Shown here piece by piece: positions 1,385-62,417 of a stretch of 64,000 bases of DNA (within the stretch, counting starts at the first letter, position 1; every line of letters begins with the position of its first letter). The position numbers were made by a program, and so were the translations under genes. The stretch comes from Closterium sp. NIES-65 (Eukaryota > Streptophyta > Zygnematophyceae > Desmidiales > Closteriaceae): contig CANXME010002658.1 of NCBI GenBank assembly GCA_948144175.1, positions 1 through 64,000 of the forward strand. Direction: 5' to 3'. A model generated the notes under the pieces. The model was not told the origin of the DNA and did no database searches. It was given only the letters and a program-made list of their open reading frames with translations.

Positions 1385-1922
1385 GGGGCAACAAAGCCCA
1401 TGCCCACCTTTCAGCCCAATGTTCCCATCCCACTCATCCACCCCATCCGTATCCTGTGCTCCTCCTTAATCAAAGAAACATCTCGTGTGTGCAGAGTACT
1501 ACTGCTGCCAATGCTTGTTGATGTTTACAATAAGATCCTCCCTACAAGTTACAACATCTCAGTCAAATCACTCCATATGAGTAGTTATATAAGGTATACT
1601 CTACTGCAGCATGTATTCTCGCACATCGCGAGCCATGGATGGCTTTTGAGGAACGCAACGAACCCCATGCCCACCGCCCCGCCCTCCATACCCCCATGCA
1701 CATCCTGCTCCTCAATAAAAAAACGACTCTAAATGGGGCTGTGCTGTGGTGTGCTGTGCTGCCCACTCTCCCCCCCTGCTCCTTTCTTCTCCCTTCTCTA
1801 CTTCATGTATTCTCGCACGTCGCGAGCGATTGACTCCAGGAAAGCAACAAAACCCATGCCCACCGCCCCGCCCTCCACGTCCCCATCCACATCTTGCTCC
1901 TCGATCAGAAACGTCTTCAAAG
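1385..1922 (-). repeat. Three decaying copies of the SEC23-like terminal coding segment
   Basis: Downstream of the stop codon at 2001 there are three further copies of the last ~125 bp of the gene, in the same orientation: 1798-1922, about 1612-1741 and about 1389-1492. The nearest still encodes an intact ending (IEEQDVDG to REYMK-stop). The second has frameshifts and the third is only recognisable in outline, so decay increases with distance. They look like serial tandem duplications of the gene end. Whether the nearest copy is ever used as an alternative last exon cannot be told from sequence. Confidence 0.85.
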
Positions 1923-2000
1923 GGGGCTGTGCTGTGTCGTGATGTGATGTGCTGTGCTGTGCTGTCTGCTCCTCTCCCCTCCTCCACACTCCTCCCTTCT

Positions 2001-5000
2001 CTACTTCATGTATTCACGCACATCGCGAGCAATCGATTCAAGAAACGCAACAAACCCCATGCCCACTGCCCCGCCCTCCACGTCCCCATCCACATCTTGC
2101 TCCTCGATCAGAAACGTCTCAAAGGGGGCTGTGCTGTCCACGCCTCCCCGGATGGTGATTGTACGCGGCGTGATTATGCGGTCGGCCTTCAGCCGGTTGA
2201 TGGTCGTCCGCAGCAAGCCTAGGAGGGACGGTTGTTGAGAGGGAGAAGAGGGGGAAGGGAGGACAAGTGGCATTTGTGACTGTACGTGGTGTGATTATGC
2301 GATCGGCCTTCAGCCTGTTGATGGTCGTCCGCAGCAATGCTAGGAAGGGGGGGAGGGAGGGAGGGACGCACAGAGGGAGTGAGGGGAGGAGGGAGTGAGG
2401 GGGATGACAGAGAGGAGATATGGGGTGTTGAGAGTGACAAGTGCTCCTGGGGAGGAGGCAAGCAGGGGACACGCATGCTAGGGTAAGAAAGAGAAGGGCT
2501 ACTCACCTGTTTGAGGCGGTGGGAAGGGAAGATCCGCAGGGGCTGCAGGCGAGTAGGAAGATGGGGCTGCAGGCGAGTAGGAAGATGGGGCTGCAGGCGA
2601 GTAGGAAGATGGGGCTGCAGGGGCTACGTACTGTGTTGTGGTTGAGGGGAAACTGTAACACTTCTTACTTGTTTGAGGCGGTGGGAAGGGAAGATCCGCA
2701 GGGGCTACAGGCGAGTAGAGGACGATGATGGTGCTCAAGACATCGAGCAGAAAGAACGGTCTGCAGGGGCTACTCGTTCGCGGGTAAAAGAAGATCAACT
2801 TACTCGTTTGCGGCGGTGGGAAGGGCAGGTCTCGTCTGCAGGGGCAGCAGGCGAGTAGAAGGCGATGATGGTGCTGAATGCACTGAGCAGAAAGATGGGG
2901 CTGCCGCTGGTGACGAGTGGTGCTGGTGATGTAGAGACACAAGCAGGTTCGGCTTATGGAACCAGAGGTGAACTTACTTGTTTGTGGTGGAGGGAATGGG
3001 AGGTCTGCAGGTGCTGCAGGCGAGTAGGAGACGATGATGGTGCTGAGTGCATCGAGGAGGAAAATTGGGCTGCCGCTGGTGACGAGTGGTGGTGGTGACG
3101 GTGAGTGGTGCATGTGATGGTGACTGGTGCTTGTGATGAGGCAAGTAGGGAACGCATGCTAGGGTAAATGAAATGTTACTCACTTGTTTGTGGTGGTGGG
3201 AAGGGCAGGTCGGGGGGAGCGGCGGGCGAATAAAAGATGATGATGGTGCTGAATGCATCGAGGAGGAAAATGGGGCTCCCGCTGGTGACGAGGGCAGCAC
3301 GGCTCAGGGAGTGGCGGGGGAAGGCGGGGCGGTCGGGAGTGGTGTAGGAGGAGAGGACGGGGTAGACAGCCCGCATGAGGAATGAAGGATCTAGAGAACT
3401 GCGGTGGGGGGGGAAACAGAGGGGTGAAGAGCGGTAGAGGTGGACAAGAATGAGGTACAGAGTGGTGGAGAAAGGTCGGTCGGGAGTGGTGAAGGAGGAG
3501 AGGACAGGGTAGACTGCCCACATGAGGAAGGGGGGGGTCCTGGGAACTGCGGTGGGGAGGGGCGGGAATGGCAACAAAGGGAGTGGGAATAGCAACAGAG
3601 GGGTGGAGAGTGATAGAGATGGAAAGAACGAGGTACAGATTGGTGAGAGAGTGAGGCGCAGAGTGGTGTAGGAGGAGAGGACTGGTTAGACTGTCCGCGT
3701 GAGGAATGAAGGGTCCAGGGAACTGCGGTGGGGAGGGGCGGGAATGACAACAGAGGGGTAGGACTGGTTAGACTGTCCGCATGAGAAATGAAGGGTCCAG
3801 GGAACTACGGTGGGGAGAGCACAAAAGAGCAGGAAGAGATGCAATGAAGCGTTGAAGGAGGGGAGTAGGAGGGTAGCACCAAATCGGGAGATGTCCCAAA
3901 ACACGTCTCAAATCTTGAGACATCTCAAGAACGTCAAGAATACCTTCAATTTTTACCAAGGTGACTTTTGAGTCGACTCAAAAGTCACAACGTCAAGAAT
4001 ACCTTCAATTTTTGCCCCACACCTTGGCAGCCACAGCAGAAGAATTCTGCAGACAGCTGGAGGGAGACAGGGGGAGGAGAACAGAGGTGTAGATAGGTGG
4101 AGAGAGTGGAAAAATGGTGGAGAGGGGTGGAGAGCTCTCACCTGTATAGGCAGTGCAGGAACGTGCGCAAGTCAGGATGCACCCGTTCCCTTGGCAGCTG
4201 CAGCAGCGGCGAGCAGAGGAGAGAGCTATAGAGGCCTAGGGAGATATTGAGCGGTGGAGTGTGGTGGAGGTGAGCAGAGATCTTACCTGTATAGGCAGTG
4301 CAGGAACGTGCGCAGGTCAGAGTGAACCCCTTCCCTTGGCAGCTGCAGCAGAGGAGATCGCAGGAGCGCAAAGGCAAGCCGCGGCAGCAGCTGCAGCTGT
4401 GGGCAGGCTGAGAAGGAGAGATCTAGAGGAAGGTGGGGAGAGAGGTGGAGAGCGGTACACAGTGCTCACCTGTAGAGGCAGTGCAGGAACGTGCGCCAGT
4501 CAGGATGCACCCCTTCTCGTAACATCTGCAGCAGTGGAGATCGCAGGAGCGCAAAAGCTAGCCGCAGCAGAGGCTGCAGCTACGGGCAGGCTGAGAAGGA
4601 GAGATCTAGGCGAGTCACAGAGTGGGGCTGGTTGAAATGAAGAGAGGTGGAGAGTGGTACAGAGCTCTCACGGTCTCACCTGTATAGGCAGTGCAGGAAC
4701 GTGCGCAAGTCAGGGTGAACCCCTTCCCTTGGCAGCTGCAGCAGAGGAGACCGCAGGAGCGCGAAAGCCAGCCGCGGCAGCGGCTGCAGCTGCGGGCAGG
4801 CTGAGAAGGAGACGTCTAGGCGAGTCACCGAGTGGGGTTGGTTGAACTGAAGAGAGGTGGAGAGAGGTGGAGAGGGGTGGAGAGCTCTCACGGTCTCACC
4901 TGTATAGGCAGTGCAGGAAAGTGCGCAGGTCAGGGTGAACCCCTTCCCTTGGCAGCTGCAGCAGCGGAGAGAGCTGGACAGGAGTACGGAGAGAGTGAGA

Positions 5001-8000
5001 GTGGTCGAGAGAGGGTGGAGAGCGGTGGAGAGTGGTCTCACCCGTATAAGCAGTGCAGGAACGTGCGCAGGTCAGGGTGAACCCCTTCCCTTGGCAGCTG
5101 CAGCAGCGGCGAGCGCAGGAGAGCAAAAGCCAGCCGCGGCAGCGGCTGCAGCTGCGGGCAGGCTGAGAAGGAGACGTCGAGGCGAGTCACCGAGTGGGGT
5201 TGGTTGAACTGAGCGAGGCCAAAGGCGTGGTTGTAGTGGGCCGTGAGAATGACCAGCCAGTCCTGCAGGAGCAACCTGCCTTCCCGTACTCCCTCTTCCA
5301 GCGATGCCCGAATGACCTGTGGGAAGGAAGAGGGAGGGGATGGAAAGGGCTGGTTGAACTGGGCGAGTCCGAAGGCGTGGTTGTGGTGGGCCGTGAGAAT
5401 GACCAGCCAGTCCTGCAGGAGGAGTCTGCCTTCCCTTACTCCTTCCTCAAGGGACGCTCTGATAACCTGTGGGAGGGGAGAGAAGGTGAAAGAGAGAGGG
5501 ACAGAAGGGGCTGGTTGAACTGGGCGAGTCCGAAGGCGTGGTTGTAGTGGGCCGTGAGAATGACCAGCCAGTCCTGCAGGAGCAACCTGCCTTCCCTTAA
5601 TCCCTCTTCCAGGGATGCCCGGATGACCTGAGGAGCAGTGGGGAGAGAGAAAAAGAGAGAGGGACAGGGACAAGGAGAGGGACGGAAGGGAGTCTGCCCT
5701 CCCTTAATCCCTCTTCCAGGGATGCCCGGATGACCTGAGGAGCAGTGGGGAGAGAGAAAAAGAGAGAGGGACAGGGACAAGGAGAGGGACGGAAGGGAGT
5801 CTGCCCTCCCTTAATCCCTCTTCCAGGGATGCCCGGATGACCTGAGGAGCAGTGGGGAGAGAGAAAAAGAGAGAGGGACAGGGACAAGGAGAGGGACGGA
5901 AGGGAGTCTGCCCTCCCTTAATCCCTCTTCCAGCGATGCCCGGATGACCTGAGGAGCAGTGGGGAGAGAGAGCGGTGAGAAGGAGTGGGAGAGGAGAGAG
6001 AAACGAGCGAGGGAAGGAAAGTGGGAGCACATAAAGACCCGCGAATGGCCTCGTACACGGCTTTTGAGAAGCCTACAAATCAGCAGTTAAACACCCATCG
6101 CGTGTAATGAGTCGATTTTTGAGTCGACTCAAAGATCCCGCGAATAGCCTCGTGCAGGACTTTTGAGAAGCCTAAAAATCAGCAGTTAAACACCCATCGC
6201 ATGTGCGAGCAAGGTGAGAATGGCTTCGTTACCAGCAGACTCGTATTTCTCCCTCGCCCCCCTCGCCACGTCCAGTCATGAAACATCTCAGATACAGGAA
6301 AACCTCATTCTTTTTAGGCGCCTTCAAAAGACGATTTTTGAGGCGCCTCAAAAGACGTCTCAAACACTGGAAAATCTTCTGAGTCGACTCAAGAACAGAC
6401 CCACCTTGTGTGTGAGAACATTTAGGGCGCGTTGCATTTGGCGCACATAGCTCAAAACTCAACTAACCACTTTGAACCATGCCGTAACGCTCTCTAAAAC
6501 TTCAAACTTCGACAAAAAAATCGACCCTGCAACACGCCCTTAGAAGAGCTCGTTATCAGCAAACTCGTATATCTCCCTCGCCCCCCTCCCACTTGGCCAA
6601 CCCCGGGTCCCAAGACTAGAAGAGGAGAAGAGAGGAGAGCACCCACCTTGCGTGTGATAACAGTCAGAATAGCTTCGTTATCAGCAGAATCGCATACCCC
6701 CCTCGCCCCCCTCGCCACATCCACACATATCATCTTCACTCTCAGCCTTCTCCTCCTCAGCACCACGCCCCCTTCAGCACCGCTCCTCTCCTGCTTCCAT
6801 CCTCCCCGTTCCTTCCATTACTCACTTGTGACTTACCTTGTGTGTGAGAACGGTTAGAATGGACTCGTTATCAGCAGACTCGTATATCTCCCTAGCCCCC
6901 TTTGCCCCACCCCTTCACTTCGCCAACCCCATGTCCCAAGACTAGAAGAAGAGAGGACTCACCTTGTGTGTGAGAACAGTGAGAATGGACTCGTTATCAG
7001 CAGACTCGTACATCTCCCTCGCCCCCCTCGCCACCTCCAGTCATAAGACGTCTCAACCACCGGTAAAGACGCACCTTGTGTGTGAGAACAGTGAGAATGG
7101 ACTCGTTATCAGCAGACTCGTAGATGTCCCTCGCCCCCTTTGCCACGTCCACACATATCGTCTTCACTCTCAGCCTCCGTCTAAGCACCACCCCTCTTCT
7201 CTTCCCACCCTTCCTCCCACTGCTGCTGCTGCTGCTGCTGCTCCCCACCCCACCTCCTCCCGCACCTGTCTCTCTTCCCCCCTCCCCCTCCTTTTCTCCT
7301 CCTCCTTCTTTCCCCTTTCCTCCCTCCATCACTCCTTCAGCAGTCCCGTTCACACCTGTAGCAGCCCCATCCCCGTTACTAGCCGCCCCGTTACCCCCCC
7401 CAACCCCCTCGCCCCTCTCCCCTCCCCCTTCCACCGGAATGATCACAGTATACTGAAACGCCAGTTGTAACACTGCTCCCCGGTTACCACCACCACTCCC
7501 TCCCTTCTCTCTCCCAGCCCTCCCCTTCACCCCAAACCCAGCCTTCCCCCGAAACTCCAAGTCAAATGCGTACGAATCAAATGGATCACATCTAATGATA
7601 TGATAAAGATTCTCATACTGAGCATCGGGGAAGAAGTGACCGTAGGCTCGGACGGCCCGAAGCTCCCGGGAGGTTCGGAGCCGGAGCACCCCGCCGAAAG
7701 CGGAGGGTCGGCAGAGCATGCGGTATATGTCTTGAGGGAGGGTAGCCTCGTCTAAAGAAGGGTAAAGAAAGAGAGTACCCCCGCTTTCCACACTTAAGCA
7801 ACGGAGAGAGGCTAGGTCACAGTATGGGACGGGCAGGGAAGAAGGGGTGGAGGGAGGAGGATCGGCAATGGTCACAGCAGCGACCCCTGCAGCAGCAGCG
7901 GCAGCAGCAGAAGCAGGATCTGTAGTTACCGCACCCCCGGCCTCTCTACTAGCATTTTCATCCCCGTTACTAGCATAACTCGGTACAGCAAACAGATCCA

Positions 8001-10405
8001 CGCACACCCCCGCTTGCACCGCAGCCGCAGCCAGCTCCCTATAAAACGGCGTCTGCTCCTGTAGCAACCCCTTATCCGCTACAACCGGGTCTGCTACATC
8101 CTTGGCGCTCCTGCTTCTCTGACTCGCCGCTACAGCCAGGCTGGCGAGAGCTGTATCGTACCGAACCGTACTCAACGCCCCCATACCATGGTTCGGGGCT
8201 CCAGAGAGGAAAACCAGTAATCTGGCCCCTACAAACGGGCCTACTTCCCCTGCGGCCGCTGCTGCCGCTGCTGCTGCGGCGATACTCACGTTACCCCCAC
8301 CACCGCCGCCACTTCCACTGGTATTGATGACGTCAGCTCGGAGGCCTCTGGCTATTCTAGCACTCGGACCATCCTCCATACCCCCTAAATACCTAATTAA
8401 AGCGTCCAAAGCCGTTCCGAAGCCCCTAACACCGTCCTTCCTCCCCCCTCTCTCCGCGTCCTTCCCTCCCTTCCCCCCTCCGCCCTTCCCCCCCGCGCCC
8501 TGCGCCGCTCCTCCCTTCCCCCCACCGCCCTTCCCCCCTCCAGACGCGTCCAAATCGAGGGGAGGAGGGTCGGGGCGGAGGGTTTCGAGAGCAGCAGCTG
8601 CGTGCTCCTTGTGACGCGAGAGGGACGCGAGGAAGGCGGGGAGGGGGAGGAGATCGCCCAGGGCTAGGGGTAAGCGGTGAGCAGAGGAGGCGGGGATGGC
8701 GACGGATTTCACTGCTGCTACGGGGCCTTGTAGATCATAAAGGCCGACCTGGTAGGGGGGGAGGGAGGGACGGAGGGAGGGACGGAGGGAGGAGAGGGAG
8801 AGATGAGTGAAGTGGGGTTTCGAGGGCGACAGCTGCGTGCTCCTTGTGGCGCGAGAGGGACGCGAGGAAAGCAGGCAGAGGGAGGAGGTCGCCCAGGGCT
8901 AGGGGCAGGCGGTGAGCAGAGGAGGCGGGGATGGCGACGGATTTCACTGCTGGCACGGGGCCTTGTAGGTCATAAAGGCCGACCTGGTAGGGTTGGGGGG
9001 AGTGGCGAGTGGTGGAGAGGGGTGGAGAGGGGTGGGGGGTGAGTGCAAAGGCAGGAGATCGCCCAGGGCTAGAGAGGCAGGTGGTGGGAGGGCGAGGCGG
9101 GGTTGGTGACGGACTTGACTGCTGCTACGGGGCCTTGTAGATCGTACAGACCCACCTGGTAGGGGGAGCGGACGGAAGGAGTGGTGGGAAGGGGTGGAGA
9201 GGGGTGGAGAGGGTTGTTAGGGGAGGGCTAAGGGCAGGCGGTGCGAGGGCGAGGCGGGGATGGTGACGGACTTGACTGCTGCTACGGGGCCTTGTAAGTC
9301 GTACAAACCGACCTGATAGGGGAAGGGGGGGAGTGGGGAGTGGTGGGGAGGGGTGGGGTGGAGTAGGGGGTGAGGTGCAGAGGTAGGAGGTCGCCCAGGG
9401 CTAGAGGCAGGCGGAGGGAGGAGGAGGGGGGGATGGCGACAGATTTGACTGCTGCCACCGGGCCCTGTAAGTCGTACAGACCCACCTGGTAGGGAGGGAA
9501 GGGGGAGGGGGGGGGGGAGGAGAGGGGAGGGAGGTAGGGAGAGAGGGGCAAGAGGGAATCGCCACCCCTAGTACTGCTGCTACGGAGCCCTGCAGGTCGT
9601 ACAGAGCGAATGCAACCCGAACAGAGCAGAAGGAGAACATAATACTCACCTTGCTTCCGAACGTAACCAGCCCGAACAGTGCAGCAGGCGAGAGCGCTTC
9701 TAACGCGGCCAGCAGCGAGCTCTTAACGAGTTCCAGAAACTCCTCTGAGCCTGACACGTCAACCATGGCGATATACACCGGCCGCTTGCGAATTTCCGCT
9801 TCGTCCAACACGTGGCAGCTGCTAATTGGCTCTCCCAACCCATGCGGAATGGAACCTGCGACCTCTCCGTCGCCCTGCGACTCTCCTTGCTCGAATTCCA
9901 CTTCGTCAGCGTCGCCCTCCGCGGCAACGTCCAGCTCGACGAGCGTGTGCGACAGCTCTGCGACGTCTGCGACGTTCGATCCCCCGTAGCGACGCAGCTC
10001 CGCGTCGCTGAACGGATTCACGACGTCGCACAGCGAGCACCGCCACGAAAACCGATCGATCGCACAGTACGGATTGATATACGCATAGCAATCCTCGCAC
10101 CGCGCCACGTCATCAGCTAGCGGAAGCGGCGCCGGCGAAAGCGCCGCGGGAAGCGGCTGCAGAGCCGTGCCGCCAGACGCAGAATTAAGAGACGACGACG
10201 AGCCGAAGCGCGGGAAAGAGGAGTTAGAAGACGATTTTCGAATGCTGCTTCCGCCGGTGCCGACGCTAGCTGCGACGCCGCTTCCCGGAATACCCGCTTC
10301 GTCATCTAGAGCGAATGGTTGGACGACGCAGCCCCACGGGAGACCCGTCGCATCGCGCGATTCCGGATCTAGCGGAAATTTGTTCACCGTGAAACGAATG
10401 GCCAT
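2001..10405 (-). CDS. SEC23-like COPII coat protein (five exons)
   Basis: This gene encodes a Sec23/Sec24-family protein resembling plant SEC23-type At4g01810. Sec23 is the GTPase-activating subunit of the COPII inner coat that buds vesicles from the ER. The exon model is 10405-9650, 8748-7075, 5316-5042, 3398-3184 and 2218-2001. All junctions are GT-AG and all phases close, giving about 1045 residues. The zinc finger is visible as Cys103, Cys106, Cys123 and Cys126, followed by the trunk domain (RPVYIAMVDVSGSEEFLEL to LVTFGSK), the beta-sandwich and helical regions (HFFPDAQYENL, PFYRELA) and the gelsolin-like end (IEEQDVDG, GFVAFLESIARDV). It is longer than the usual ~880 residues because of Gly-, Ala- and Ser-rich inserts in exon 2. 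The start is the first ATG of the conserved N-terminus (MAIRFTVNKFPLD). Introns and the 3' flank are full of partial exon copies. Family assignment is sure; the exact paralogue is less so. Confidence 0.92.
2283..2343 (-). repeat. Echo of the head of SEC23-like exon 5
   Basis: A second copy of the exon-5 start (RTTINRLKADRIITPRT) lies about 65 bp upstream of the exon in transcript order. It includes the preceding intron tail and ends before the rest of the exon. It is nearly identical to 2155-2218. Confidence 0.85.
2501..3092 (-). repeat. Four echoes of the tail of SEC23-like exon 4
   Basis: Copies of the exon-4 end (FSTIIIFYSPAAP to PFPPPQT), each followed by a donor-like GTGAGT/GTAAGT, lie at about 2974-3092, 2798-2925, 2664-2755 and 2501-2600. 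The intron sequence just past the donor (ACGCATGCTAGGGTAA) recurs at about 2471 and 3153, so the duplicated unit spans the exon-intron junction. The last copy also carries a short internal triplication (CTGCAGGCGAGTAGGAAGAT). Confidence 0.85.
3482..3812 (-). repeat. Three echoes of the head of SEC23-like exon 4
   Basis: Copies of the exon-4 beginning (SLDPSFLMRAVYPVLS-like), each preceded by the CCCCACCGCAG acceptor context, lie at about 3482-3553, 3662-3732 and 3755-3812. None continues into the rest of the exon. Confidence 0.82.
3930..4013. repeat. 28-bp palindrome between 25-bp direct repeats
   Basis: A perfect 28-bp palindrome (3961-3988, centre GAGTCGACTC) lies between two identical 25-bp copies of a sequence starting AACGTCAAGAATACC, at 3930-3954 and 3989-4013. 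It sits in intron 3 of the SEC23-like gene. The arrangement recurs elsewhere in the window. Confidence 0.9.
4137..4965 (-). repeat. Five echoes of the tail of SEC23-like exon 3
   Basis: Copies of the exon-3 end (PLLQLPREGVHPDLRTFLHC) with the following donor lie at about 4890-4965, 4677-4850, 4468-4635, 4283-4425 and 4137-4212. The 4677-4850 copy reaches back as far as the FNQPHSVTRLDVSFSAC region. The other copies are shorter. All are in gene orientation. Confidence 0.87.
5350..5950 (-). repeat. Five echoes of the head of SEC23-like exon 3
   Basis: Copies of the exon-3 start (VIRASLEEGVREGRLLLQDW) lie at about 5350-5474, 5514-5627, 5690-5734, 5798-5842 and 5905-5950. The three most distant form a clean tandem array of about 107 bp period that includes intron sequence (GGGACAGGGACAAGGAGAGG). 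Two nearer copies are long and reach the AHYNHAFGLAQFNQ segment. Confidence 0.88.
6038..6205. repeat. Palindrome between ~68-bp direct repeats
   Basis: The segments 6038-6106 and 6137-6205 are near-identical direct repeats (CCCGCGAATNGCCTCGTNCA to AAACACCCATCGC). Between them lies the palindrome TTTGAGTCGACTCAAA at 6118-6133. Intron 2 of the SEC23-like gene. Confidence 0.85.
6208..7045 (-). repeat. Five echoes of the tail of SEC23-like exon 2
   Basis: Copies of the exon-2 end (ARGARDVYESADNESILTVL) lie at about 6960-7045, 6836-6905, 6650-6745, 6540-6590 and 6208-6275, downstream of the real exon end at 7075. Two further palindromes, with cores GAGGCGCCTC (6336-6353) and GAGTCGACTC (6381-6390), sit between these copies. 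Confidence 0.87.
8812..9607 (-). repeat. Five echoes of the head of SEC23-like exon 2
   Basis: Copies of the exon-2 start (VGLYDLQGPVAAVKSVAIP) preceded by CCTACCAG-like acceptors lie at about 8812-8988, 9105-9161, 9262-9319, 9385-9492 and 9573-9607. The copy nearest the real exon (8748) is the longest and the best preserved. The farthest has lost the acceptor. Confidence 0.88.
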
Positions 10406-11053
10406 TCTGAAGGCTGGCGATCAACTCTTTTCGCGACTAGGGAACTGGTTACCGGATTGGAACGGATATCGGAGTGTTCGCGACCGTCGGCCTGATCAAG
10501 AGAAAACTTCCAGCTTTAGAAATGTCGCGCACGATAAAACGGTGGGTCGGCCACGGCATTGGCTACGGTACGAGAAAACAATGGAAACGAGCTGAGCAAG
10601 CTTCGGCTGATCATCGGAGGACGTCAAGTATATGAAATGGAATTTTTAGGGAGGTAACATAAGTAGTTTCAAGCAATGCGTAATATTTAGGTTTGGGGCG
10701 TTTAGGGTCGACAAGAAATGCACCGAGAGCGCACAATAGAGGATCTGTCCGGAACAGCGAAAGACGCTCCTAATTTTACCTGTCCCTAATCTCCTCGCCA
10801 GTGTCCCAACGAATCTGGATTCCTGATCATATTGAACGAACTTCTGCTGGTAGTTGAGCCCCCACCATGCTGTACCACACTGCATCCCACTGAGAGTAAT
10901 AGCACCGTGCACAACCACTCTAAAGGTATGACCTTTCGCCTTCTCCGAACCCAACGGAACAACATCTGTCCCGCCAAATCAGCCGTCAAGATCCAACTTC
11001 AAGAGATTCCTCGAAACGGGGAAGCGCGCCAAAACAGGAAACCCAATAATTAA
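10406..11053. promoter_or_regulatory. Intergenic region upstream of the SEC23-like gene
   Basis: About 650 bp separate the SEC23-like start codon from the tRNA gene; the region must hold the SEC23-like promoter and 5' leader. I see no convincing TATA box. The oligo-A at 11031-11034 reads as TTTT on the minus strand about 20 nt past the tRNA and is a plausible RNA polymerase III terminator. Confidence 0.4.
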
Positions 11054-11125
11054 AGGTTCTGCCGGGATTCGAACCCAGGTTGCTGGATTCAAAGTCCAGA
11101 GTGCTAACCACTGCACCACAGAACC
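11054..11125 (-). tRNA. tRNA-Gln (UUG)
   Basis: On the minus strand the 72-nt sequence folds as a full cloverleaf. The acceptor stem GGTTCTG pairs with CAGAACC; the D arm has the AGTGGTTA loop; the anticodon stem CTGGA/TCCAG encloses loop CTTTGAA, giving anticodon TTG; the T arm contains TTCGAAT; the discriminator base is U, as in other eukaryotic tRNA-Gln. Both internal promoter boxes are intact. No CCA is encoded, as expected for a nuclear gene. Confidence 0.96.
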
Positions 11126-11225
11126 GGTGTATGTCGAAAGACAGCAACATACATAACCAATTATCAAGTTAATCCAACTTAAAAGTTTAACTTGGCTATT
11201 GCTTAGTGTGTTTGTTTTTACAGCA

Positions 11226-14200
11226 ATGGCGTACCTCGGAACCACGTCAGCGGGGCTCGAATTCGCGCTACGAGATGAGGTGAGAGCCGCGCAGAGCACG
11301 GGTTTCTCTCTCGACCCGCACGCGAGGTGCGAGTACTGCAGCGCAGGTCGCTCTGGCATAGACCTACGCGGTCTTTGCGATTCAAATGTTGAGCGCTGAC
11401 CCATCGATCAGCCAAGTCTCCTGGGCTGTCTAAGTGGCGATTATGGGGAAAGCCTACTCGCAATGCACCGCTTCTGAGGACCCGCAACCTATAGTCTCTC
11501 CTGAACATTTGAAAAGAAATCCTTCGTTACCCACCAGACCATTTTAAACCACTCTTCACCCTCATTCTTACACTTCCCCCCGAATCTATGGTGCCAGCTG
11601 GCTGCCAGGCTGGCGGGGAGGGTGTCTGACGTCAGCGCGGTGCATGGCGGGGTGAGGTTCACCACTGGCGCTGCTGCTGAGGTGGGTGCGCGAAGGTTCC
11701 ACGAAAAGAGCGGGTAGTGATGATTGATCAAGAGGATGCGGGGAGGGGTATGATGGAAGGGATCATGAGAGGGGAAGATCATGAGTGACACCTCAATACC
11801 TAAATCTTAAACCCTGAATCTTGGACCCTGAGTTTTATACCCCGAATCTGAAACCCTGATTAACCCTGAATCTAAAATCTAGATTCTTGAACCTTGAATC
11901 TTACGCCTGAGCCCTAGTTAGTCTCTTCCCTTGTCCTGCTTTGGTTATTTTCTACTGAACGCAGGAGCTGCAGCAGCTGAGGGCGGTGGACAACCTATAC
12001 GCGTTTGTAGCCTCACGAGAGGTGCGTCATACGTCCGAGCAATGTATATACTGCTGCTGCCTTTCCTAAGTTATACCAAAATCAGAGACATTTATTCCTC
12101 GCGCCACCGCCTCCCTGCTCTGCTGCTTGACCAATCAGGACGTGCCACATGGCAAGGAGGCCGTTGACTACTTCACCGCACTGCCAGCTCAGGTATGTTT
12201 TGCAGTGTTTTCATCGATTGTGCACACTGCTGGCTCCACACTGCCAGCTAAGCAATGTCAGCTCAGCATGCCAGCTCAGCATTGGCATGCCATGACTGAT
12301 CAACTGTGTGCTCTGTTGTTTCCTACCTGGCATATCCTCACCTGCCACGTCAGCAGATAGACTGGCAGCCAGCCCTCTCGCTTTTCCACCAATGGCAGCA
12401 GCGCAGGGAGGATGGAATGACGTCAGCAGCATGCGAAAGCAGACAGGAGCTGACGTCATCAGCTGAAGAGCATGAAAAATCACCTGAGAGGAAGAGGCTG
12501 AGACAGGAGGGAGAGCATGCGGTGGCGGTAACACCTGGGGCAACAGACACTGCTGATGTGGCACCACCTGAAGGAGCACCTGGGGAAACACCTGAAGGAG
12601 CACCTGTGGGAACGCGTGAGGGAGGCAAGGCAGTGGCGGCGGCAGCGGCAGAGGCAGCAGCAGGAGGAGCAGCAGAGAGGCAGGGTTCCAGTGGGCTGCA
12701 GTTTAGAGTGACCTGCCATCGTGTGTGCATGAAGCTTACCAAACACGGGTTCTCCTCCCCTGAAGCCGCTGGTATGTGCTCTTTATATGCATGTATGTGT
12801 GTGCGTGTGTGCGTGTGTGCATGTGCATGTGGGGTGGGAACAACAGGAGCAGCAGAGAGGCAGGGATCCAGTGGGCTGCAGTTTCGAGTGACCTGTCATC
12901 GAATATGCATGAAGCTGACTAAACACGGGTTCTCCTCCCCTGAAGCTGCTGGTACGTGCCCGCATCTGCGCTTTCCCATGCATCTGCATTTGCACCCACA
13001 TCTGCACTTTCTCGCTCACAGGCGTATTGGTTAGTCTGAGTGTGCATCTCTTGGGATACCACTGTTACGAGGTGACTTTTGAGTCGACTCATAAGTCACC
13101 TCATCTGCACTTTCTCGCTCACGGTTCACACACCTCCCACCCCTCCTCTACTGCCATCACCCTTGTCTCACAGGCGCCCTCGGCGAGGGCCTTCTAGAAA
13201 TCTTCTCGTCCTGGACCGTCAGCCTTGGGCAGTTTGAGTGTGGGCCTTAGAGTATCACGGTTCACACACCTCCCACCCTTCCTCTACTCCCATCACCCTT
13301 GTCTCACAGGCGCCTTGGGCGAGGGCCTTCTGGGAATCTTCCCATCCTGGACCGTCAGCCTTCGCCAGTTTGAGTGTGAGTGTGTGCGCTACCAGCCGCG
13401 CAGCATATAATCAGTTGAAGAACGTAGTCTAATAAAAAGCGAGTCTTATCTTACTTTGATAATGTACTTAAGAATGTAGTCTGATGAAGAGCGAGTCTTA
13501 TCTTACTTTGATAATCCCTTTGGGTTCCCTGCTTGTGCATCTCCTCCTCCGTCTCTCCCCTCCCTCTCCTCCTCCGTCTCTCCCCTCCCTCTCCTCCTCC
13601 GTCTCTCCCCTCCCTCTCCTCCTCCGTCTCTCCCCTCCCTCTCCTCCTCCGTCTCTCCCCTCCCTCTCCTCCTCTTTCCCAGTGGACGTGCTAGCATTGA
13701 TCCGGGACTCCCATCTCACTAAGTTGCTCTCTCTCTCTCTGCCTTTCGTCCCCCCTATGGGTACGTTGCATGTACATCACTCCCCCCCTTTCCTTTCTTC
13801 CCTTCCCCCCTCTCTTACCCTGTCACTTTCCCTCCCCATCTCCCCTTCCCTCCCCCCTAGTGGACGTGCTAGCATGGATCCGGGACTCCCATCTCACGCT
13901 GCTCATCGCACTCATCTATGCGTGAGCATATTTCCGTTACCTTGCCTTCTGAGGCGCCTCAAAAGGCATACTTCCGTTACCTTGCCTTCTGAGGCGCCTC
14001 AAAAGGCATACTTCCGTTACCTTGCCTTCCCTTCCCTTTCCTTCCCTTCTCAACAACGTCTCGCCACACCTCCTCCTATCCCCATTTCCCCCTCGCTCAT
14101 TTCTTCTCCCTCTCCTCTCTGCTCCCCTTCCCCTCCACCACCCCCCAACCTCATAAACTCTCTTACAATGCAAACTGAATTCCTACACTCCATAGTGGTT

Positions 14201-17200
14201 CTATTTGCTGACATTCATCCCTCCTTCTAAACTGTGGACGCTCGATCGAGAAATCTGACTCTTGCAGTGATTCCCCGAAGAGAAGTGAAGAGGGATCAAA
14301 GGAGCAACAGGAACGGCAACTAAAGGAGCAACAAACAGAACAAGTGAAGGAGCAACAGGCAGAGCAAACCAATGGAGAGAGCAAGGATTTGGACAAGTGC
14401 GGCGGCAGCGGGGAGGGCAAAAAGAACGCAGGGAGGGCAATTCAAGCGAGATCACACAACGCAGAGAGACAGGTGGGTGTGGCTTGAGCTACTCCGCAGT
14501 CTAGGGGGTGGGGTGGGGTGGGGTGGGGTGGGGTGGGGTCGGCACGGTCGGGAATCAATGCTCCTTGTTCTCAGTTTTTGCTTAAGACTCTGCTGTATTT
14601 CTTGAAGTTCTGAACGTAAATCGCACGACAAAATGGGACAGGCAAGGCAAGTACCAGACTAATCAATACTTTTGAGTCGACTCAAAAGTCAGCATGGGAC
14701 AGGCAAGGCAAGTACCAGACTAATCAATACTTTTGAGTCGACTCAAAAGTCAGCATGGGACAGGCAAGTCAAGTACCATACTAATCATGACTTTTGAGTC
14801 GACTCAAAAGTCAGCATGGGACAGGCAAGACAAGTGCCAGACTAATCATCTACTCCTCCTCCGCTCCTCCCCCTTCACCTTCTCCCCAGCTCTACTCTTC
14901 CCTTCCCTACCGCAAGGCTCATGTTCCAACGTCTCCCATCCCCTTCCCGCTCCGCCTCCTCCTCCCCTTTCTCCTTCCCTCCACATACCCCTCCGCCTGC
15001 CCTTTCCCCCGTCCTTCCTCATCTCCCATCCCCCCAGCTCTACTCCTCCCGCTCCTACCGCAAGGCCCATGTCCTTCCCCATCACCCATCCCCCTCCCGT
15101 TCCGCCTTCCCCTCCCCCTCCCTCCCCTTTCCTTCCCTTACCAACAGCTCTACTCCTCCCGAGCCTATCGCAAGGCCCTCGTCCCAACGTCCCTCAAGCC
15201 CAGGTGGGTGTGTCTGTTCTGGTTACCGCGTGTCACATTCCCATGATGTGTCTTGGACCGCCTCACATCCCAGCTTGGGACACTCCCTCCTCCTCTCCAC
15301 CTCTACTCCTCCCGCGCCTACCGTAAGGCCCTCGTCCCAACGTCCCTCAAGCCCAGGTGGGTGTGTCTGTTCTGGTTACCGCGTGTCACATTCCCATGAT
15401 GTGTCTTGGACCGCCTCACATCCCAGCTTGGGACACTCCCTCCTCCTCTCCACCTCTACTCCTCCCGCGCCTACCGTAAGGCCCTCGTCCCAACGTCCCT
15501 CAAGCCCAGGTGGGTGTGTCTGTTCTGGTTACCGCGTGTCACATTCCCATGATGTGTCTTGGACCGCCTCACATCCCAGCTTGGGACACTCCCTCCTCCT
15601 CTCCACCTCTACTCCTCCCGCGCCTACCGTAAGGCCCTCGTCCCAACGTCCCTCAAGCCCAGGTGGGTCTGTCTACCGCCCACCTGTTTGCATTCCCACA
15701 AAACCCCATGATGAGACGTCTCAAAAGCCGTCTTCTTACACACGGGCTTTAAGACGCTCCTGAACTCAAGCCCAGGTTGCGCCTTTTCCGCTTCTCGCTC
15801 TGTCATCCTCCCCCCTCCACCTCTCCCCACCCCTTCTGGTTATTCCTTCCCTAGCCCTCCTGCAACTGGCTTATATCCGTGCTTACACCTCGCCACATCC
15901 CCACCTCCCTCCTCTCGTCTCCTCCCCCCTCTGCCCCTTTCCCCCCCCTCCTCAGCACAGCTTTCGCCCTCCTGCAACTGGCAAACATCCGCGCTTGCAC
16001 CTTACAACCTCTTCCTCTCCTCTCTTCATCCTCTCTTCATCCTCTCTTCATCCTCTCTTCATCCTCTCTTCATCCTCTCTCCTCTCTCTTTCCCTCTCTT
16101 TTCCCCTTCGCAGCACCGCCTTCGCCCTCCTGCAACTGGCGGACATCCGCCCAGGCGACATCGTGCTCGACCCCATGTGAGGCTCACTGTACTCGTTATT
16201 GAGCTGTATATGCGAACTCGTTATAGCCATCCACACTACAGGGAAGCACACCTGCCGCAGGCCTGTTAGCCTTGGCCCTCCTGCAACTGGCGGGCTTCCA
16301 CCCCGGCCACATCGTGCTCGACCCCATGCAAGTCCCTGCATACTCGTTATCAATATCCTCACATCATACTGGCCTTGCCATTGCCCTCCTGCAACTGGCG
16401 GGCATCCACCCCGGCCACATCGTGCTTGACCCCATGTGAGGCTTTTTCCTCGTTTACACATACTCTTTATTGAGTTGTAGAAAGGGGACGCACCTGTCAG
16501 TCACACACCTGCTGGCCTCCGCCCTCCTGCAACTGGCAGACATCCACCCCGGCAGAGCAACTGGCCTACTCAGCCCCATGACATGTAAGGTTCTATACTA
16601 GTCGTACTGTAGCCAGTCATACTCGTTATAGAGTGGCAGGGTACACACATGCCACAAATCTGTCTGCCTCCGCCCTCCTGCAACTGGCTGGCGGGCCTCC
16701 ACCCCGGAGGGGATAACAAATGCTCTGTGGCTGTTCATGCATGAGCACGCCTTGTATCCCTCCATATCGCATGTCACCGCACTAAATCCCTTCGTTCAAC
16801 CCCCCTTTTTCAGGTGTGGCTGTGGGACTCTCCCTCTGGAGGCTGCTGATTGGTTGAAAAGTTGCGTCAGTGCATTTGGGGGGGATAAAGATGCAGGGGC
16901 TGTAGATGCTGCTGCAACCAATAGCATCGCTTGGAGAACCGCTTTAGCCAATAGCAAAGCCTTGGGAATTGCTGCGGCGAACAGGAGCGCCTTGAGAATC
17001 TCTGCGGCCAATCAGGGCAAAGAGGAAGCCGCTGTAGCGAATGGGGATGCAGCAAGGAGGAGCCAAAAGGGCCACGTGGCAGGCTGTGATTGGCTGGTCT
17101 GGGATGCCTCTGCCCTGCCTCTGCGAACCGGCTGTGTGGATCGGGTGCTCTGTGACATGCCCTTCGGGGTGCGGTGTGGTGAGTGGTTCGAAGTGGTGAA

Positions 17201-19912
17201 GAGTGGTGACAAGCGGTGACAAATGGTGAAAAGAGGTGAAAAGTGGTGGAGGTGCTTAGTTGATGACTGGCTGTGGATCGGGTGCTCTGTGACATGCCCT
17301 TTGGGGTCAGGTGTGGTGAGTGGTGGAAAGCAGTGACAAGCGGTGCTTAGGAGGGGTGTCATGTGTGGATAGGGTGCTCTGTGACATGCCCTTCGGTGTG
17401 TGGTGTGGTGAGTGGTGACAAGTGGTGACAAGTGGTGACAAGCAAGCCCCATGCCCCGTACCCCGTGCCCCACTCTGCCTGTGTTCTCCATGCCAACCCC
17501 TGCATCCGCTGCTTCCAGGAAACTTCAAGATGAGAGAGCGGCTGTGCCCCGCAGTGATCCGGCAGGTGTGTGTGTGGAGGGGGGAGGGGGAAGGGGGGTA
17601 GAGGGGGGAAGGAGAGGAGAGAGGGGGGGGGAGGAAGAGGAAAAGGATGAGGTGAGGGGGAAGAACAAGAGGGGAAGTCGGTGATATGAGGGCAGTGGGG
17701 AGAGAGAGGCTGCGCCCTGCAGTGATCCGGCAGTGCGGGAGGGAAGGGAAGGGGGGGTGAGGGGAAGGGGGAGGAGGTGAAGGAAGAGGAGGACGGGAAA
17801 GATGGGGTGGATATATGACTTTGACAGGTGAGCGAAGAGGAGGAAATTTCTACATTATTACCTAGCTGTTTTTTTCCTTGTCAGCTTTTAATCTCCGTGC
17901 TCCTCCAAGCCACGAGTATTTCTTTCCATTATAGAAAATTTCCACATTATGATGTTCTTTTTCTACTTCCCCTTCTCTTTACCCTGCCCTGAAACTCTCA
18001 GGTTGCACGTGTACTGACCCCAGGCACTGGTACGTATGCATCCTGCTGCAACCCCCATTTCCTCAATTGCTCCAACGCCCGCACCCGCATGTGCCAGTCC
18101 CACCCAACCCATGCTCTCATCACGCACACGTGTGCTGACCCCAGGCACTGGTACGTATTCATCCTGCTGCAAACCCCCTCAAATCTGCCAGTTATGTGAA
18201 AATATTCAACCCCTCATGTCCCAATGATGTTGAGTATCCTGAGTCGTTGTTTCCCACACCTGTATGGCAAGTCAATTACTTGGATTCTCATAATCGCTTC
18301 AATCTGCTTGACTTTCACCCACTCCCTTGATCTGTCCGACCCAGTGTCAAGTTACCAATCATGTATACTCCCCACAACATAGTATTGCAATCCGATACCT
18401 TTCCACAAAAACCGAATGGCAAAAACTTGATTTTTTTTCTCATCACTTAGACGTGCTTGCCACACAGTTCCCAGGTTTGTGTCTTTCATTTCAATTCATT
18501 TTATTGGCCTGCTAATCCCCTTGCAGGACTGGCAGTGCTGATGGCGGTGGGCAGGGGCGGTGAGGGCAGCCGTTGAGGGGCTATCTGTGTGTCTGCGGGA
18601 GAAGCGATTGCTACATCCCCACCCCCTATCTCCCCCTTTTCATGTCCCGCTCTCCTTTGTCCCCCTGCTCCTTGCAGGACTGGCAGTGCTGATGGCGGTG
18701 GGGAGGGGCGTGAGGGCAGGTGTTGATGGCCAGGCAGTGTGTCTGCCCGTCTGATGCACTTGCTGCTGCTTTCCACCCCCCTCCCCGCCCCTCTTCTCCC
18801 CTCCTTCCTATCTCCTCCCTGTCTGCAGGACTGGCAGTGCTGATGGCGGTGGGGAGGGGTGTGAGGGCAGCTGTTGAAGGCCTGTCTGTGTGTCTGCGGG
18901 AGAAGCAACGACTGGCTGTGGAAATGGAGGTGAGGGGGGTGGGGAGGGGTTGAAATGGGAGCAAGTGAGTTGCCTCAAAGGCTCTCTGCACTCTACAGAG
19001 AAAGGCACAGTTAAAGGAAGGGGTGTGACTTGTGACTCGTGAGGGCAGCCGTTGAGGGCCTGAGCGTGTTTCTGCGGGAGAAGCAGCGACTGGCTGTGGA
19101 GATGGAGGTGAGGGGGGGTGGGTAGGGGTTGAAATGGGAGCAGGTGAGTTGCCTCAAAGGCTCTCTGCACTCTACAGTGAAAGGCACAGTTAAAGGAAGG
19201 GGTGTGACTTGTGACTCGTGAGGGCAGCCGTTGAGGGCCTGAGCGTGTGTCTGCGGGAGAAGCAGCGACTGGCTGTGGAGATGGAGGTGAGGGGGGATGG
19301 GTAGGGGTTGAAATGGGAGAAAGTGAGTTGTCTCAAAGGCTCTCTGCACTCTATAGAGAAAGGCACAGTTAAAGGAAGGGGTGTGACTTGTGACTCGTGA
19401 GGGCAGCCGTTGAGGGCCTGAGCGTGTTTCTGCGGGAGAAGCAGCGAGTGGCTGTGGAGATGGAGGTGAGGGGACGGGAGTGTGTATGGGGGAGGTAGTA
19501 TATGAGGCACATACACATATGTGGGGGGCGGAAAAAGAGGCGTGAGAGCAGCTGTTGAGGGTTTGGCTGTGTGCCTTCGGGAGAAGCAGCGGTTTTCAGC
19601 CGCTGGCTGTCGGAATGGAGGTTAGGGGGGTGGTGGGTGGGAGGTCGGGGGGTTCGGAATGAGAGGTGAGAGGTGTGGTGGTGGAAGGGAATGAGATGTA
19701 CGAGGGGGGTGAGTGGATGGTGAGGGGAATGGCATGTTCCATAATTATAGCATTATTTCAACATCACACCATTTACTGTATGTTGTTTTTCTTCTTCTCG
19801 TGACTTTGTCCAGGGTATTCGAGTTGATGTTTATGTGTTGGAGCGAACTGAAGCCGCTGTTCCGGACCCATCGCCACCAGCACCAGCAGCACACCGACAT
19901 GCAAGGAAGTGA
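11226..19912 (+). CDS. THUMPD3-like tRNA (guanine-N2) methyltransferase (15 exons)
   Basis: The product is a THUMP-domain class I methyltransferase of the THUMPD3/Trm14 type, which makes m2G in tRNA (in animals with TRMT112). My exon model is 11226-11279, 11598-11681, 11965-12021, 12139-12192, 12357-12771, 13310-13375, 13861-13921, 14268-14472, 15148-15203, 16114-16176, 16814-17178, 17519-17565, 18002-18029, 18829-18929 and 19814-19912. Every junction is GT-AG and the phases close to 584 residues (human THUMPD3 is about 500). Visible motifs are the N-terminal TTSAGLE, the THUMP segment FRVTCHRVCMKLTKHGFSS, the linker YRKALVPTSLKPS, the SAM-binding loop DPMCGCGTLPLEAA near residue 372 and the catalytic DMPFG near 487. 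A Lys/Gln/Glu-rich insert is exon 8. Many exons have partial copies in the introns, so the choice among copies was made by splice sites and phase. Confidence 0.88.
12841..12955 (+). repeat. Echo of the tail of THUMPD3-like exon 5
   Basis: A second copy of the exon-5 end (RQGSSGLQFRVTCHR, HGFSSPEAAG) with its donor follows the real one by about 180 bp. It is 90% or more similar by eye. Confidence 0.88.
12999..13122. repeat. 34-bp near-palindrome between 21-bp direct repeats
   Basis: A 34-bp palindrome with one mismatched pair (13069-13102, centre GAGTCGACTC) ends directly at the second of two identical 21-bp repeats starting CATCTGCACTTTC (12999-13019 and 13102-13122). Intron 5 of the THUMPD3-like gene. 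Confidence 0.88.
13174..13237 (+). repeat. Echo of the head of THUMPD3-like exon 6
   Basis: A near-copy of exon 6 with its acceptor (CTTGTCTCACAG) lies 136 bp before the real one. It lacks the GTGAGT donor, reading GTGGGCC instead, and hits a stop. The surrounding intron (TTCACACACCTCCCACCC) is duplicated with it. Confidence 0.85.
13545..13725 (+). repeat. CT-rich tandem repeat and echo of exon 7 head
   Basis: Five tandem ~27-bp units (CTCTCCTCCTCCGTCTCTCC) at about 13545-13677 form a long polypyrimidine tract. It ends in CCCAG and a partial copy of exon 7 (VDVLALIRDSHLT, 13683-13725). The real exon starts at 13861 after a second CT-rich tract. Confidence 0.82.
13928..14030. repeat. Three 40-bp units joined by two palindromes
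   Basis: The unit CATACTTCCGTTACCTTGCC occurs three times with a 40-bp period. The first two copies are each followed by a 22-bp palindrome with core GAGGCGCCTC (13945-13966 and 13985-14006, one mismatched pair each). The third has none. Confidence 0.87.
14633..14848. repeat. Four 35-bp units joined by three palindromes
   Basis: The unit starting ATGGGACAGGCAAG is repeated four times with a 61-bp period. Each of the three joints carries a 22-26 bp perfect palindrome centred on GAGTCGACTC (14668-14689, 14729-14750, 14788-14813). The fourth unit ends without one. Intron 8 of the THUMPD3-like gene. Confidence 0.92.
14884..15662 (+). repeat. Copies of THUMPD3-like exon 9, including a 153-bp tandem array
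   Basis: Exon 9 (LYSSRAYRKALVPTSLKP) is present six times. Two partial heads with acceptors lie at about 14889 and 15040. Then come four copies whose donors are at 15204, 15357, 15510 and 15663, an exact 153-bp period. Only the copy at 15148-15203 has both an AG acceptor and a donor. In the three later copies the base before the exon reads CAC instead of CAG, so they should not be spliced in. Confidence 0.9.
15857..16705 (+). repeat. Seven copies of THUMPD3-like exon 10
   Basis: The segment FALLQLADIRPGDIVLDPM or its start is present at about 15857-15890, 15964-15998, 16114-16176, 16272-16328, 16383-16436, 16518-16556 and 16672-16705. Only 16114-16176 has both a good acceptor and a CCCAT-GTGAGG donor. 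The copy at 16383-16436 has the donor and a complete reading frame but no AG directly before it. An 11-bp repeat (TCATCCTCTCT) fills 16019-16085. Confidence 0.87.
17272..17420 (+). repeat. Two echoes of the tail of THUMPD3-like exon 11
   Basis: Copies of the exon-11 end (VDRVLCDMPFGVR, then GTGAGTGG) lie at about 17272-17318 and 17364-17412. The second has a stop (GATAGG) in place of the Asp-Arg codons. Short GTGGTGACAAG repeats surround them. Confidence 0.85.
17566..18150 (+). repeat. Echoes of exon 12 and exon 13 tails
   Basis: The exon-12 end (RLCPAVIRQ) recurs at about 17703-17732 after a G-rich intron stretch. The exon-13 sequence (RVLTPGTG with GTACGTAT donor) recurs at about 18127-18150. 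Both are shorter than the real exons. Confidence 0.75.
18524..19610 (+). repeat. Echoes of THUMPD3-like exon 14, heads and tails
   Basis: Before the real exon (18829-18929) there are two head copies (GLAVLMAVGRGVRA, about 18524 and 18677). After it come four tail copies (GLSVCLREKQRLAVEME then GTGAGG) at about 19040-19110, 19224-19290, 19408-19470 and 19541-19620. The first three tails form a ~184-bp tandem array that includes intron sequence. Confidence 0.87.
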
Positions 19913-19929
19913 TGTAGTGCTTTTCTTGC

Positions 19930-20106
19930 CTGGGGATTCTACCCAGGGCATTCGAGTCGATGTCTGTGTGCTTGTCCCTGGAGGAAACTGCAATGGGAGA
20001 TGCAGTGGAGGGAGCTGCATCTCCCATTGTGGAACCACCACTGCCAGCACTATCAGCAGGACCACCACTAGCAGCACCATTAGCACGACATGCAAGGAAG
20101 TGATGT
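19930..20106 (+). repeat. Echo of the THUMPD3-like last exon
   Basis: The segment repeats CCCAGGGCATTCGAGT and ends with the same GACATGCAAGGAAGTGATGTAGTGCTTT context as the real stop region. It is interrupted by an unrelated insert of CACCACTA-type repeats. It lies just past the stop codon at 19912. Confidence 0.75.
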
Positions 20107-20159
20107 AGTGCTTTCAGACATTCCTACCAGTGATTTACCATAATCATTCAAATTCTTGT

Positions 20160-20856: not shown

Positions 20857-21230
<374 letters not shown>

Positions 21231-23269: not shown

Positions 23270-28938
<5,669 letters not shown>

Positions 28939-33535: not shown

Positions 33536-33635
33536 CCTTCTGCAGAGTTTCCCGGCCTGCCCTGCCTGGTGAGCACAGTCGCACTGTCACTGCGTGCTCT
33601 TCCCCTACTGCTTGCACTGCTTCGCTGTCGTCGTC

Positions 33636-47099: not shown

Positions 47100-47279
47100 G
47101 TTTGGACAATAAGACCATGCAGATTCAACATGTGTATTCAACCTCAGCCTCTCACCTTGAACGTATGAGGCGAAACATGTTGTTCCTCACGACCGCCTCA
47201 AGCTCTGTTGGACAATAAGACCATGCGGATATAAGGTGTAGTATTGTTCATAAGAGAGAATGGAAGGGGGGAAATTGAG
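47100..47279. other. 5' region of the transposase gene
   Basis: Two copies of GGACAATAAGACCATGC (about 47105 and 47208) flank a unique stretch. It probably holds the transposase promoter. Nothing else is recognised. Confidence 0.45.
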
Positions 47280-62415: not shown

Positions 62416-62417
62416 AC

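Follow-up and report, generated by a model that had tools for sequence, protein, structure and literature searches.

Serial copies of exon ends in two genes of the single-celled green alga Closterium sp. NIES-65, a probable case of exon stuttering

The window analyzed here, the first 64,000 nucleotides of contig CANXME010002658.1 of Closterium sp. NIES-65, carries a SEC23/SEC24-like gene and a THUMPD3-like gene whose introns hold serial, mostly partial copies of the adjoining exons. Copies of exon heads lie upstream and copies of exon tails downstream of one complete exon. The pattern is of a kind already known, exon stuttering, which was named in chicken dot chromosomes by Hron et al. in February 2026 (PMC12954441), so an earlier note on this DNA that held it to be undescribed is superseded on this point. 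New are the lineage, the copies past stop codons, differences in whole units between two loci, and differences between copies and coding exons that follow the codon phase. The codon phase and the copies beyond stop codons had not been foreseen in the earlier note.

Exons were placed with the guidance of Closterium homologues and their borders were fixed at splice sites, and the family labels of both genes are based on Pfam matches and homologue names. All 20 exons were located, all 18 introns are GT-AG and the reading frames of both genes are open throughout. The SEC23/SEC24-like gene (2001..10405, minus strand) has five exons, S1 (9650-10405), S2 (7075-8748), S3 (5042-5316), S4 (3184-3398) and S5 (2001-2218), with an open frame of 1045 amino acids. 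Its open reading frames (ORFs) match Pfam Sec23_trunk and zf-Sec23_Sec24, and homologues occur in Closterium and land plants; no relative of the protein was found on the viral contigs searched. The THUMPD3-like gene (11226..19912, plus strand) has 15 exons and an open frame of 584 amino acids: T1 (11226-11279), T2 (11598-11681), T3 (11965-12021), T4 (12139-12192), T5 (12357-12771), T6 (13310-13375), T7 (13861-13921), T8 (14268-14472), T9 (15148-15203), T10 (16114-16176), T11 (16814-17178), T12 (17519-17565), T13 (18002-18029), T14 (18829-18929) and T15 (19814-19912). The T11 ORF matches the Pfam UPF0020 methyltransferase family. The gene has homologues in Closterium, and its protein is nearly letter for letter the same as parts of proteins from NIES-64 and NIES-65.

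The census of copies was made with blastn, comparing each exon with its own gene region and counting same-strand rows outside the source exon. It yielded 58 rows, and dropping one weak, G-rich match of 33.7 bits that lies within another copy (19088-19120) leaves 57 copies in 21 series. The SEC23/24-like gene holds 32 and the THUMPD3-like gene 25 of them, in line with the roughly 31 and 25 reported earlier. Among all 58 rows, 17 of the 18 head-only rows are upstream of their exon, the lone downstream row being the dropped one, and all 25 tail-only rows are downstream, which bears out the claimed arrangement. Four rows cover a whole exon (T6 once, upstream; T9 three times, downstream) and 11 end short of the border. 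Identity between copy and exon is mostly 72-93%. All 57 copies sit in modelled introns or beyond stop codons; 13 of the 18 introns bear copies and THUMPD3 introns 1-4 and 7 have none, so the earlier wording that nearly every junction is affected was too strong.

In the SEC23/24-like gene, all copies are on the minus strand. S2 has five head copies (8815-8983, 9050-9155, 9224-9312, 9379-9485, 9573-9604) and six tail copies (6963-7045, 6837-6906, 6647-6775, 6549-6585, 6405-6420, 6202-6274). The five head copies of S3 form a 107-bp array (5347-5457, 5507-5627, 5694-5734, 5801-5841, 5908-5948), and five tail copies lie on its other side (4902-4981, 4682-4850, 4472-4640, 4289-4419, 4144-4223). S4 has three head copies (3474-3529, 3661-3722, 3760-3804) and four tail copies (2978-3086, 2806-2917, 2669-2753, 2508-2592). 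A single head copy precedes S5 (2276..2337), and three S5 tail copies are found beyond the stop codon and thus outside introns (1798-1935, 1610-1747 and 1388-1407, the last only 20 nt long).

The copies of the THUMPD3-like gene are all on the plus strand. Single copies derive from the T5 tail (12845..12951), the T7 head (13683..13719), the T12 tail (17700..17733), the T13 tail (18127..18150) and the T15 tail (20072..20103), the latter being the fourth copy past a stop codon. The T6 copy (13174..13239) lies upstream and comprises the whole exon. T9 has two head copies (15038-15074, 14890-14933) and three tail copies in 153-bp units (15301..15662) that contain the whole exon. T10 has two head copies (15956-15992, 15854-15879) and four tail copies (16269-16327, 16377-16435, 16515-16553, 16666-16688), and T11 has two tail copies (17272-17315, 17362-17407). 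T14 has two head copies (18678-18746, 18527-18605) and four tail copies in 179-bp units (19039-19107, 19218-19286, 19397-19465, 19536-19591). The two genes also hold all six occurrences of a 16-bp palindrome, TTTGAGNCGNCTCAAA (3967, 6118, 6337, 14671, 14732 and 14793), for which none are expected in shuffles; three of them are part of a 61-bp array.

We also applied the published exon-stuttering settings (PMC12954441), which count matches of at least 20 nt and set a threshold of 42.1 bits. The adjacent introns gave 52 matches of sufficient length, of which 42 reach the threshold, and neither the other introns of the same gene nor shuffled introns gave any. On the opposite strand there were no matches in adjacent introns and three in other introns, all under the threshold, which agrees with the earlier statement that copies keep the orientation of the gene. 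With 42 adjacent matches and none in the controls at threshold, these introns fall under the operational definition of exon stuttering. The source lies at a median distance of 0 from the exon border, within one base in 23 and within two bases in 28 of the 42 matches. Dust-filtered blastn controls, which are noisy, returned 3 antisense rows against the 58 same-strand ones, 1 for the reversed sequence and 0 and 1 for the other gene, as well as 20 (plus) and 114 (minus) matches in the rest of the window. Exons S2 and T5, through their codon repeats, account for almost all of the matches listed for the unfiltered controls.

The copies are spaced 82-262 bp apart (median 151, quartiles 126 and 178), and 18 of 57 spacings are divisible by three, as expected at random. 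These spacings, and the whole units that differ between two loci (see below), match the earlier proposal that short tandem duplications occurred repeatedly, each breaking once inside the exon and once beyond it. The proposed decay with distance holds weakly when series are pooled (Spearman -0.29, p = 0.03); the sign varies between individual series. Near direct repeats account for 0.83 and 0.54 of the intron bases in the two genes and for 0.39 of positions 1000-2000, mostly beyond the SEC stop codon. The other stretches measured have 0.00-0.13, with the exception of a simple-repeat tract at 47-51 kb (0.89). The five copy-free introns are short (117-346 bp) and have a GC content of 0.50 versus 0.56 in the 13 copy-bearing introns (p = 0.001). 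The density of G-quadruplex (G4) motifs is 0 in the former and 2.5 per kb in the latter, a difference that may be either a cause or a consequence of the copies.

The number of copies can be accounted for without special breakpoints. We simulated random tandem duplications of ~153 bp that were kept if both exons stayed complete, with whole-exon duplications rejected. Starting introns like the five copy-free ones led to 46.6 ± 9.5 intronic copies and an exon-derived share of 0.25 ± 0.05, and starting introns like the two shortest only led to 73.0 ± 8.8 copies and a share of 0.37 ± 0.05. The observed values are 53 intronic copies and a share of 0.34 (3,772 of the 10,971 bp in 13 introns). Since the simulation brackets the observed copy number, targeting of junctions is unnecessary, and the one-sided arrangement of heads and tails would follow from selection for complete exons.

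Most copies retain the splice site of their source. At the exact border, 19 of 22 head copies have an acceptor AG, and 24 of the 31 tail copies that are internal have a donor GT. One base of slack changes this to 20 of 22 and 25 of 31, and the additional tail (T12) looks like chance. The head copies keep long pyrimidine tracts that differ in sequence. The T10 tail copy ending at 16327 has the donor GC-AAGT in place of GT. The combination of both splice sites and an open frame, as expected of a duplicated whole exon, is absent from 56 of the 57 copies, namely the 53 partial ones and the three from T9, which have no acceptor AG. Frame, stop codons and the codon phase of private changes lead us to reject the copies as coding exons in general, T6 excepted. 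Splice-site retention fits recent neutrality and function is not needed to account for it. The copies are probably without function, in which case splicing must use the outermost sites of each intron.

Differences between copies and coding exons are phased by codon position, affecting 102 of 1363 first, 50 of 1365 second and 315 of 1352 third positions, counts that are not independent because the copies are interrelated. The differing codons comprise 287 synonymous, 121 non-synonymous and 4 stop codons, the latter about as frequent as at random, and of 12 indels 9 are frameshifts. Third-position GC is similar in exons (0.69) and copies (0.71), so the excess does not reflect decay toward AT. 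The third-to-second position ratio is 6.4, and a single lineage that is copied repeatedly should give little more than 2 if the synonymous rate equals the neutral rate. Changes private to the coding exon number 3/0/21 by codon position. Those private to single copies (31/805, 25/811 and 43/808) show a mild third-position excess, and removal of the copy with the highest third-position rate from each series gives 15/525, 15/531 and 13/527; the truth is between the full and the reduced sets. We read the copies as now evolving about neutrally, from sources that would already have diverged from today's exon by ~0.2 per third position.

The intron parts that adjoin the copied borders align poorly, with a median identity of 0.81 compared to 0.76 in shuffles, heads being worst. 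The youngest units, T9, T14 and T6, were picked for intron parts that align far above shuffles, and the second T9 and T14 units were not used. Pooled, their exon parts differ at 19 of 191 positions and their intron parts at 5 of 261 (p = 2e-4); taken singly, p is 0.05 for T9, 0.02 for T14 and 0.11 for T6. The T9 unit has three synonymous changes within 10 nt, and 97 of its intron bases are identical. From the codon-phase ratio and the higher divergence of exon than of intron parts in young units, we infer that the coding exons recombined with diverged functional alleles. Sections of a published study describe another strain of the complex, NIES-4550, as being of hybrid origin with recombination between genes of different origin (PMC10407611).

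A search of the genome (874 Mb in 2,400 contigs) identified a near-identical second locus on contig C105, with 40 mismatches and 32 gap events relative to positions 1-20,556 of the window. Across 4,893 bp of exons there are 5 mismatches and no gaps. The window locus carries an additional 306 bp (two T9 tail units, 2 x 153), 358 bp (two T14 tail units, 2 x 179) and 108 bp (a single T10 tail unit). Its smaller surpluses are 75 bp (three units of 25 bp), 40 bp and, at three places, 14-20 bp. The C105 locus is in turn longer by 121 bp that are G-rich, by 35 bp and by 11 bp. The loci thus differ in total by five whole copies and five exon bases. These unit differences rest on one assembly and concern two loci in the same genome rather than different individuals; the copy number of the arrays is apparently still changing. 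The mismatches are concentrated in the THUMPD3-like half, where 35 of the 40 lie beyond 13 kb (13000-20556).

The pattern is also present in a third gene on another contig, so it is not confined to the two genes in which the earlier note described it. A screen for codon-phased repeats over 200 kb of C105 found 9 of 206 repeat pairs to be phased, where ~2 are expected. Five of the nine belong to one gene (C105:672.25-673.75 kb), and the remaining four are tandem- or low-complexity-like or could not be resolved. The same screen flags only 7 of 72 pairs in the window and therefore misses most copies. The third gene has an exon that ends in a stop codon. Two head copies, each following a CAG, lie upstream of this exon, and five tail copies are located beyond the stop codon, which three of them contain; none of the copies are antisense. 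Its copies differ from the exon at 18/242, 8/247 and 67/244 positions by codon position, counts that omit ~10 nt at the exon start. Searches of Pfam and the PDB gave no convincing family for it; its sequence may resemble the tail of a formin.

Other strains were compared via their predicted proteins. Naga37s-1 has two diverged SEC proteins, one whose first 321 residues are 99% like the window (P0140) and one with a NIES-54-like stretch (P0144), and translated copies seem to have lengthened both. The window and P0144 have in common the S3 head copy closest to the exon, including its breakpoint and a residue specific to that copy, and P0140 has a different S3 head array. T14 head copies are present in protein P0125, and NIES-54 P0001 seems to hold a translated copy from beyond the SEC stop codon. 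As copies are in part common to and in part different between strain proteins, some seem to predate the strains and others to be strain-specific.

We consider it likely that these arrays represent exon stuttering in a green alga, shaped by tandem duplication, loss of exon-breaking events, turnover of units and exchange with diverged alleles. Short tandem duplications of ~80-260 bp would arise repeatedly over exon borders, as is visible in the anatomy of the arrays. Breakpoints would be untargeted and duplications that break the coding sequence would be lost, which the simulation supports. Only exon-preserving duplications would survive, leaving heads upstream and tails downstream of one complete exon, and introns would grow. 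Whole units would be gained and lost with exons intact, as in other tandem repeats; this step draws on three arrays in one assembly. Finally, coding exons may have recombined repeatedly with diverged functional alleles of an interbreeding complex, so that copies differ from the exon mostly synonymously even though they evolve about neutrally.

Several observations weigh against this account. Intergenic sequence has far fewer near repeats (0.00-0.13) than the introns (0.54 and 0.83), a contrast not predicted by random genome-wide duplication, in a comparison that is rough owing to low-complexity masking and is confounded by transposons and turnover. The simulation bars whole-exon duplications by assumption. 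The T6 copy is a whole exon with an acceptor AG, an open frame and the GT donor GTGGGC (GTGAGT in the coding exon), and could serve as an alternative exon. Excluding from each series the copy whose third-position rate is highest favors the phase-free outcome, and with all copies a mild excess remains. For the THUMPD3-like gene, no diverged functional copy was found in the genome, as all 20 scored matches, the best candidates, fall on two near-identical places. A diverged source must therefore be in other individuals or lost. The positions at which the window and NIES-68 proteins differ give 110 position-by-copy cells; of these, 79 agree with the window, 20 with NIES-68 and 11 with neither, which makes a NIES-68-like donor unlikely. 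Two specific sources were rejected: a NIES-68-like donor, given the predominance of the window state, and a resident diverged paralogue, given that the THUMPD3-like search found only the near-identical second locus.

The codon phase also has another, rather unlikely, explanation, in which one coding lineage was copied at different times, the copies decayed neutrally without allele exchange and the third-position excess stems from faster synonymous change in the exon. Changes shared by subsets of copies are nearly all at third positions (14/2/51, with 4/2/26 unique to the coding exon, among 357/355/354 columns), a pattern that successive branching of copies from the coding lineage would produce, and the 20 cells with the NIES-68 state hold what the window exon lost or never had. 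This explanation requires synonymous change in the exon to be about five times faster than in copies 30-880 bp away (third positions 0.233, second positions 0.037). It also sits poorly with the hardly alignable intron parts next to the borders and with pooled youngest units that diverge more in exon than in intron parts. Alternatively, the copies could be used as decoy or alternative splice sites under selection to regulate splicing. We regard this as improbable: AG and GT are retained at most borders, pyrimidine tracts persist in the heads and the T6 copy is complete, but retention fits a branch of ~0.03 per site and seven of eight 'broken' copies no longer align to the border. Moreover, the spacings are not multiples of three, stops and frameshifts are undepleted, some copies lie beyond stop codons in the window and in the third gene, and whole units are missing at the second locus.

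It is less probable still that copies are kept coding-like as donors that convert the coding exon, with bad copies selected against. Exon parts in young arrays do look recombined, but selection of this kind is contradicted by the undepleted stops and frameshifts and by the small codon phase of private changes. An assembly artefact that created or mis-sized the arrays seems barely credible. Units of the youngest arrays are 97-99% alike and could be collapsed or expanded by assemblers, and the unit differences between loci depend on the assembly. Most copies are nevertheless too diverged from the exon to be read duplicates, and translated copies also turn up in proteins predicted for other strains (the S3 head copy of Naga37s-1, with its own residue change and breakpoint, and the T14 heads). 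In addition, the read N50 of 30 kb given for NIES-65 in the part of PMC10407611 that describes its sequencing exceeds every array here.

Beyond the favored account of duplication, loss, turnover and exchange, we tentatively entertain the doubtful idea that the arrays are both a running archive and an exchange ground, where unequal recombination between diverged functional alleles makes copies and swaps exon ends. Intron growth, array turnover and synonymous divergence of exons would then be one process that is likely genome-wide in Closterium. Since the copies record past states of coding exons, they can show how exons and alleles recombined. The streptophyte case suggests a general route of intron growth instead of a quirk of bird microchromosomes, and gain and loss of units could be watched in Closterium, which is haploid and has known crosses. 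Public Closterium gene models seem to include translated copies. P0121 has 676 amino acids compared to 584 in our model, and SEC models of 1497 (P0140), 1532 (P0144) and 1314 (P0141) amino acids exceed our 1045.

The remainder of the window contains other repeats and genes. Positions 1-1000 at the contig start are a dispersed repeat, a GA-rich minisatellite and its flank with at least 105 genome matches, many at 90-97%. A long TGC/GCN repeat array (20857-21229) is followed by an open frame of 1,741 codons (23276-28498) that has a WRKY match close to its beginning. Retroelement fragments occupy 33573-36107 and 61486-62571, with a GAG-pre-integrase match and a below-cutoff integrase match, and Tf2-1-like SH3 and chromo domains. 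An open frame at 45541-47079 matches a MULE transposase, and 47200-50900 consists of ~4 kb of simple tandem repeats in which several frames are open. Two adjoining protein-kinase ORFs are encoded on the minus strand (53070-56216 and 57870-59867), and near repeats are few in 51-64 kb (0.03).

Several known systems resemble the arrays. Whole-exon duplication, including mutually exclusive exons, also leaves extra exon-like sequence in introns in the same orientation. Here, only 4 of 57 copies are whole and three of these lack the acceptor AG, so T6 alone could qualify. Minisatellites, or variable number tandem repeats (VNTRs), gain and lose units in tandem arrays, and the arrays here likewise differ in copy number unit by unit. 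Unlike minisatellites, they start from unique exon-border sequence, are many per gene and have highly diverged units. Intron gain by tandem genomic duplication, as outlined in portions of PMC4974935, likewise involves a short tandem duplication that touches coding sequence and is rescued by splicing. In such a gain, an intron arises at a new site, flanked by the duplicated stretch of exon; the copies here appear to differ in lying within existing modelled introns.

The closest counterpart is exon stuttering in chicken. In the open-licence literature, only PMC12954441 came up for such partial exon copies and nothing naming the pattern in Closterium, which also goes unmentioned in the sections consulted of the Closterium study PMC10407611. 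As set out in parts of PMC12954441, lateral exon parts are copied with the splice site through the adjacent intron, in >90% of cases the source is no more than 1 base away from the border, and 3.4% of dot-chromosome introns are affected. These parts also report extensive within-species variation in intron length, an association in birds with a GC-rich, G4-prone setting that is not part of the definition, and a data-not-shown mention of exon stuttering in gerbil genes. The chicken and Closterium arrays share direct tandem copies of lateral exon parts in the adjacent intron, an intact coding exon, repetitive introns, exon parts of tens to hundreds of bases and a variable number of units. By the published screen, 12 of 18 introns are affected here, a density that cannot be fairly compared with the 3.4% in chicken because these genes were picked for the pattern. 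The differences between copies and exons follow the codon phase here, and the words 'synonymous' and 'codon position' are absent from the main text of PMC12954441. Unlike the chicken case, the host is a streptophyte alga and not a bird microchromosome, copies also lie beyond stop codons, and the variation is between two loci of one genome instead of between individuals.

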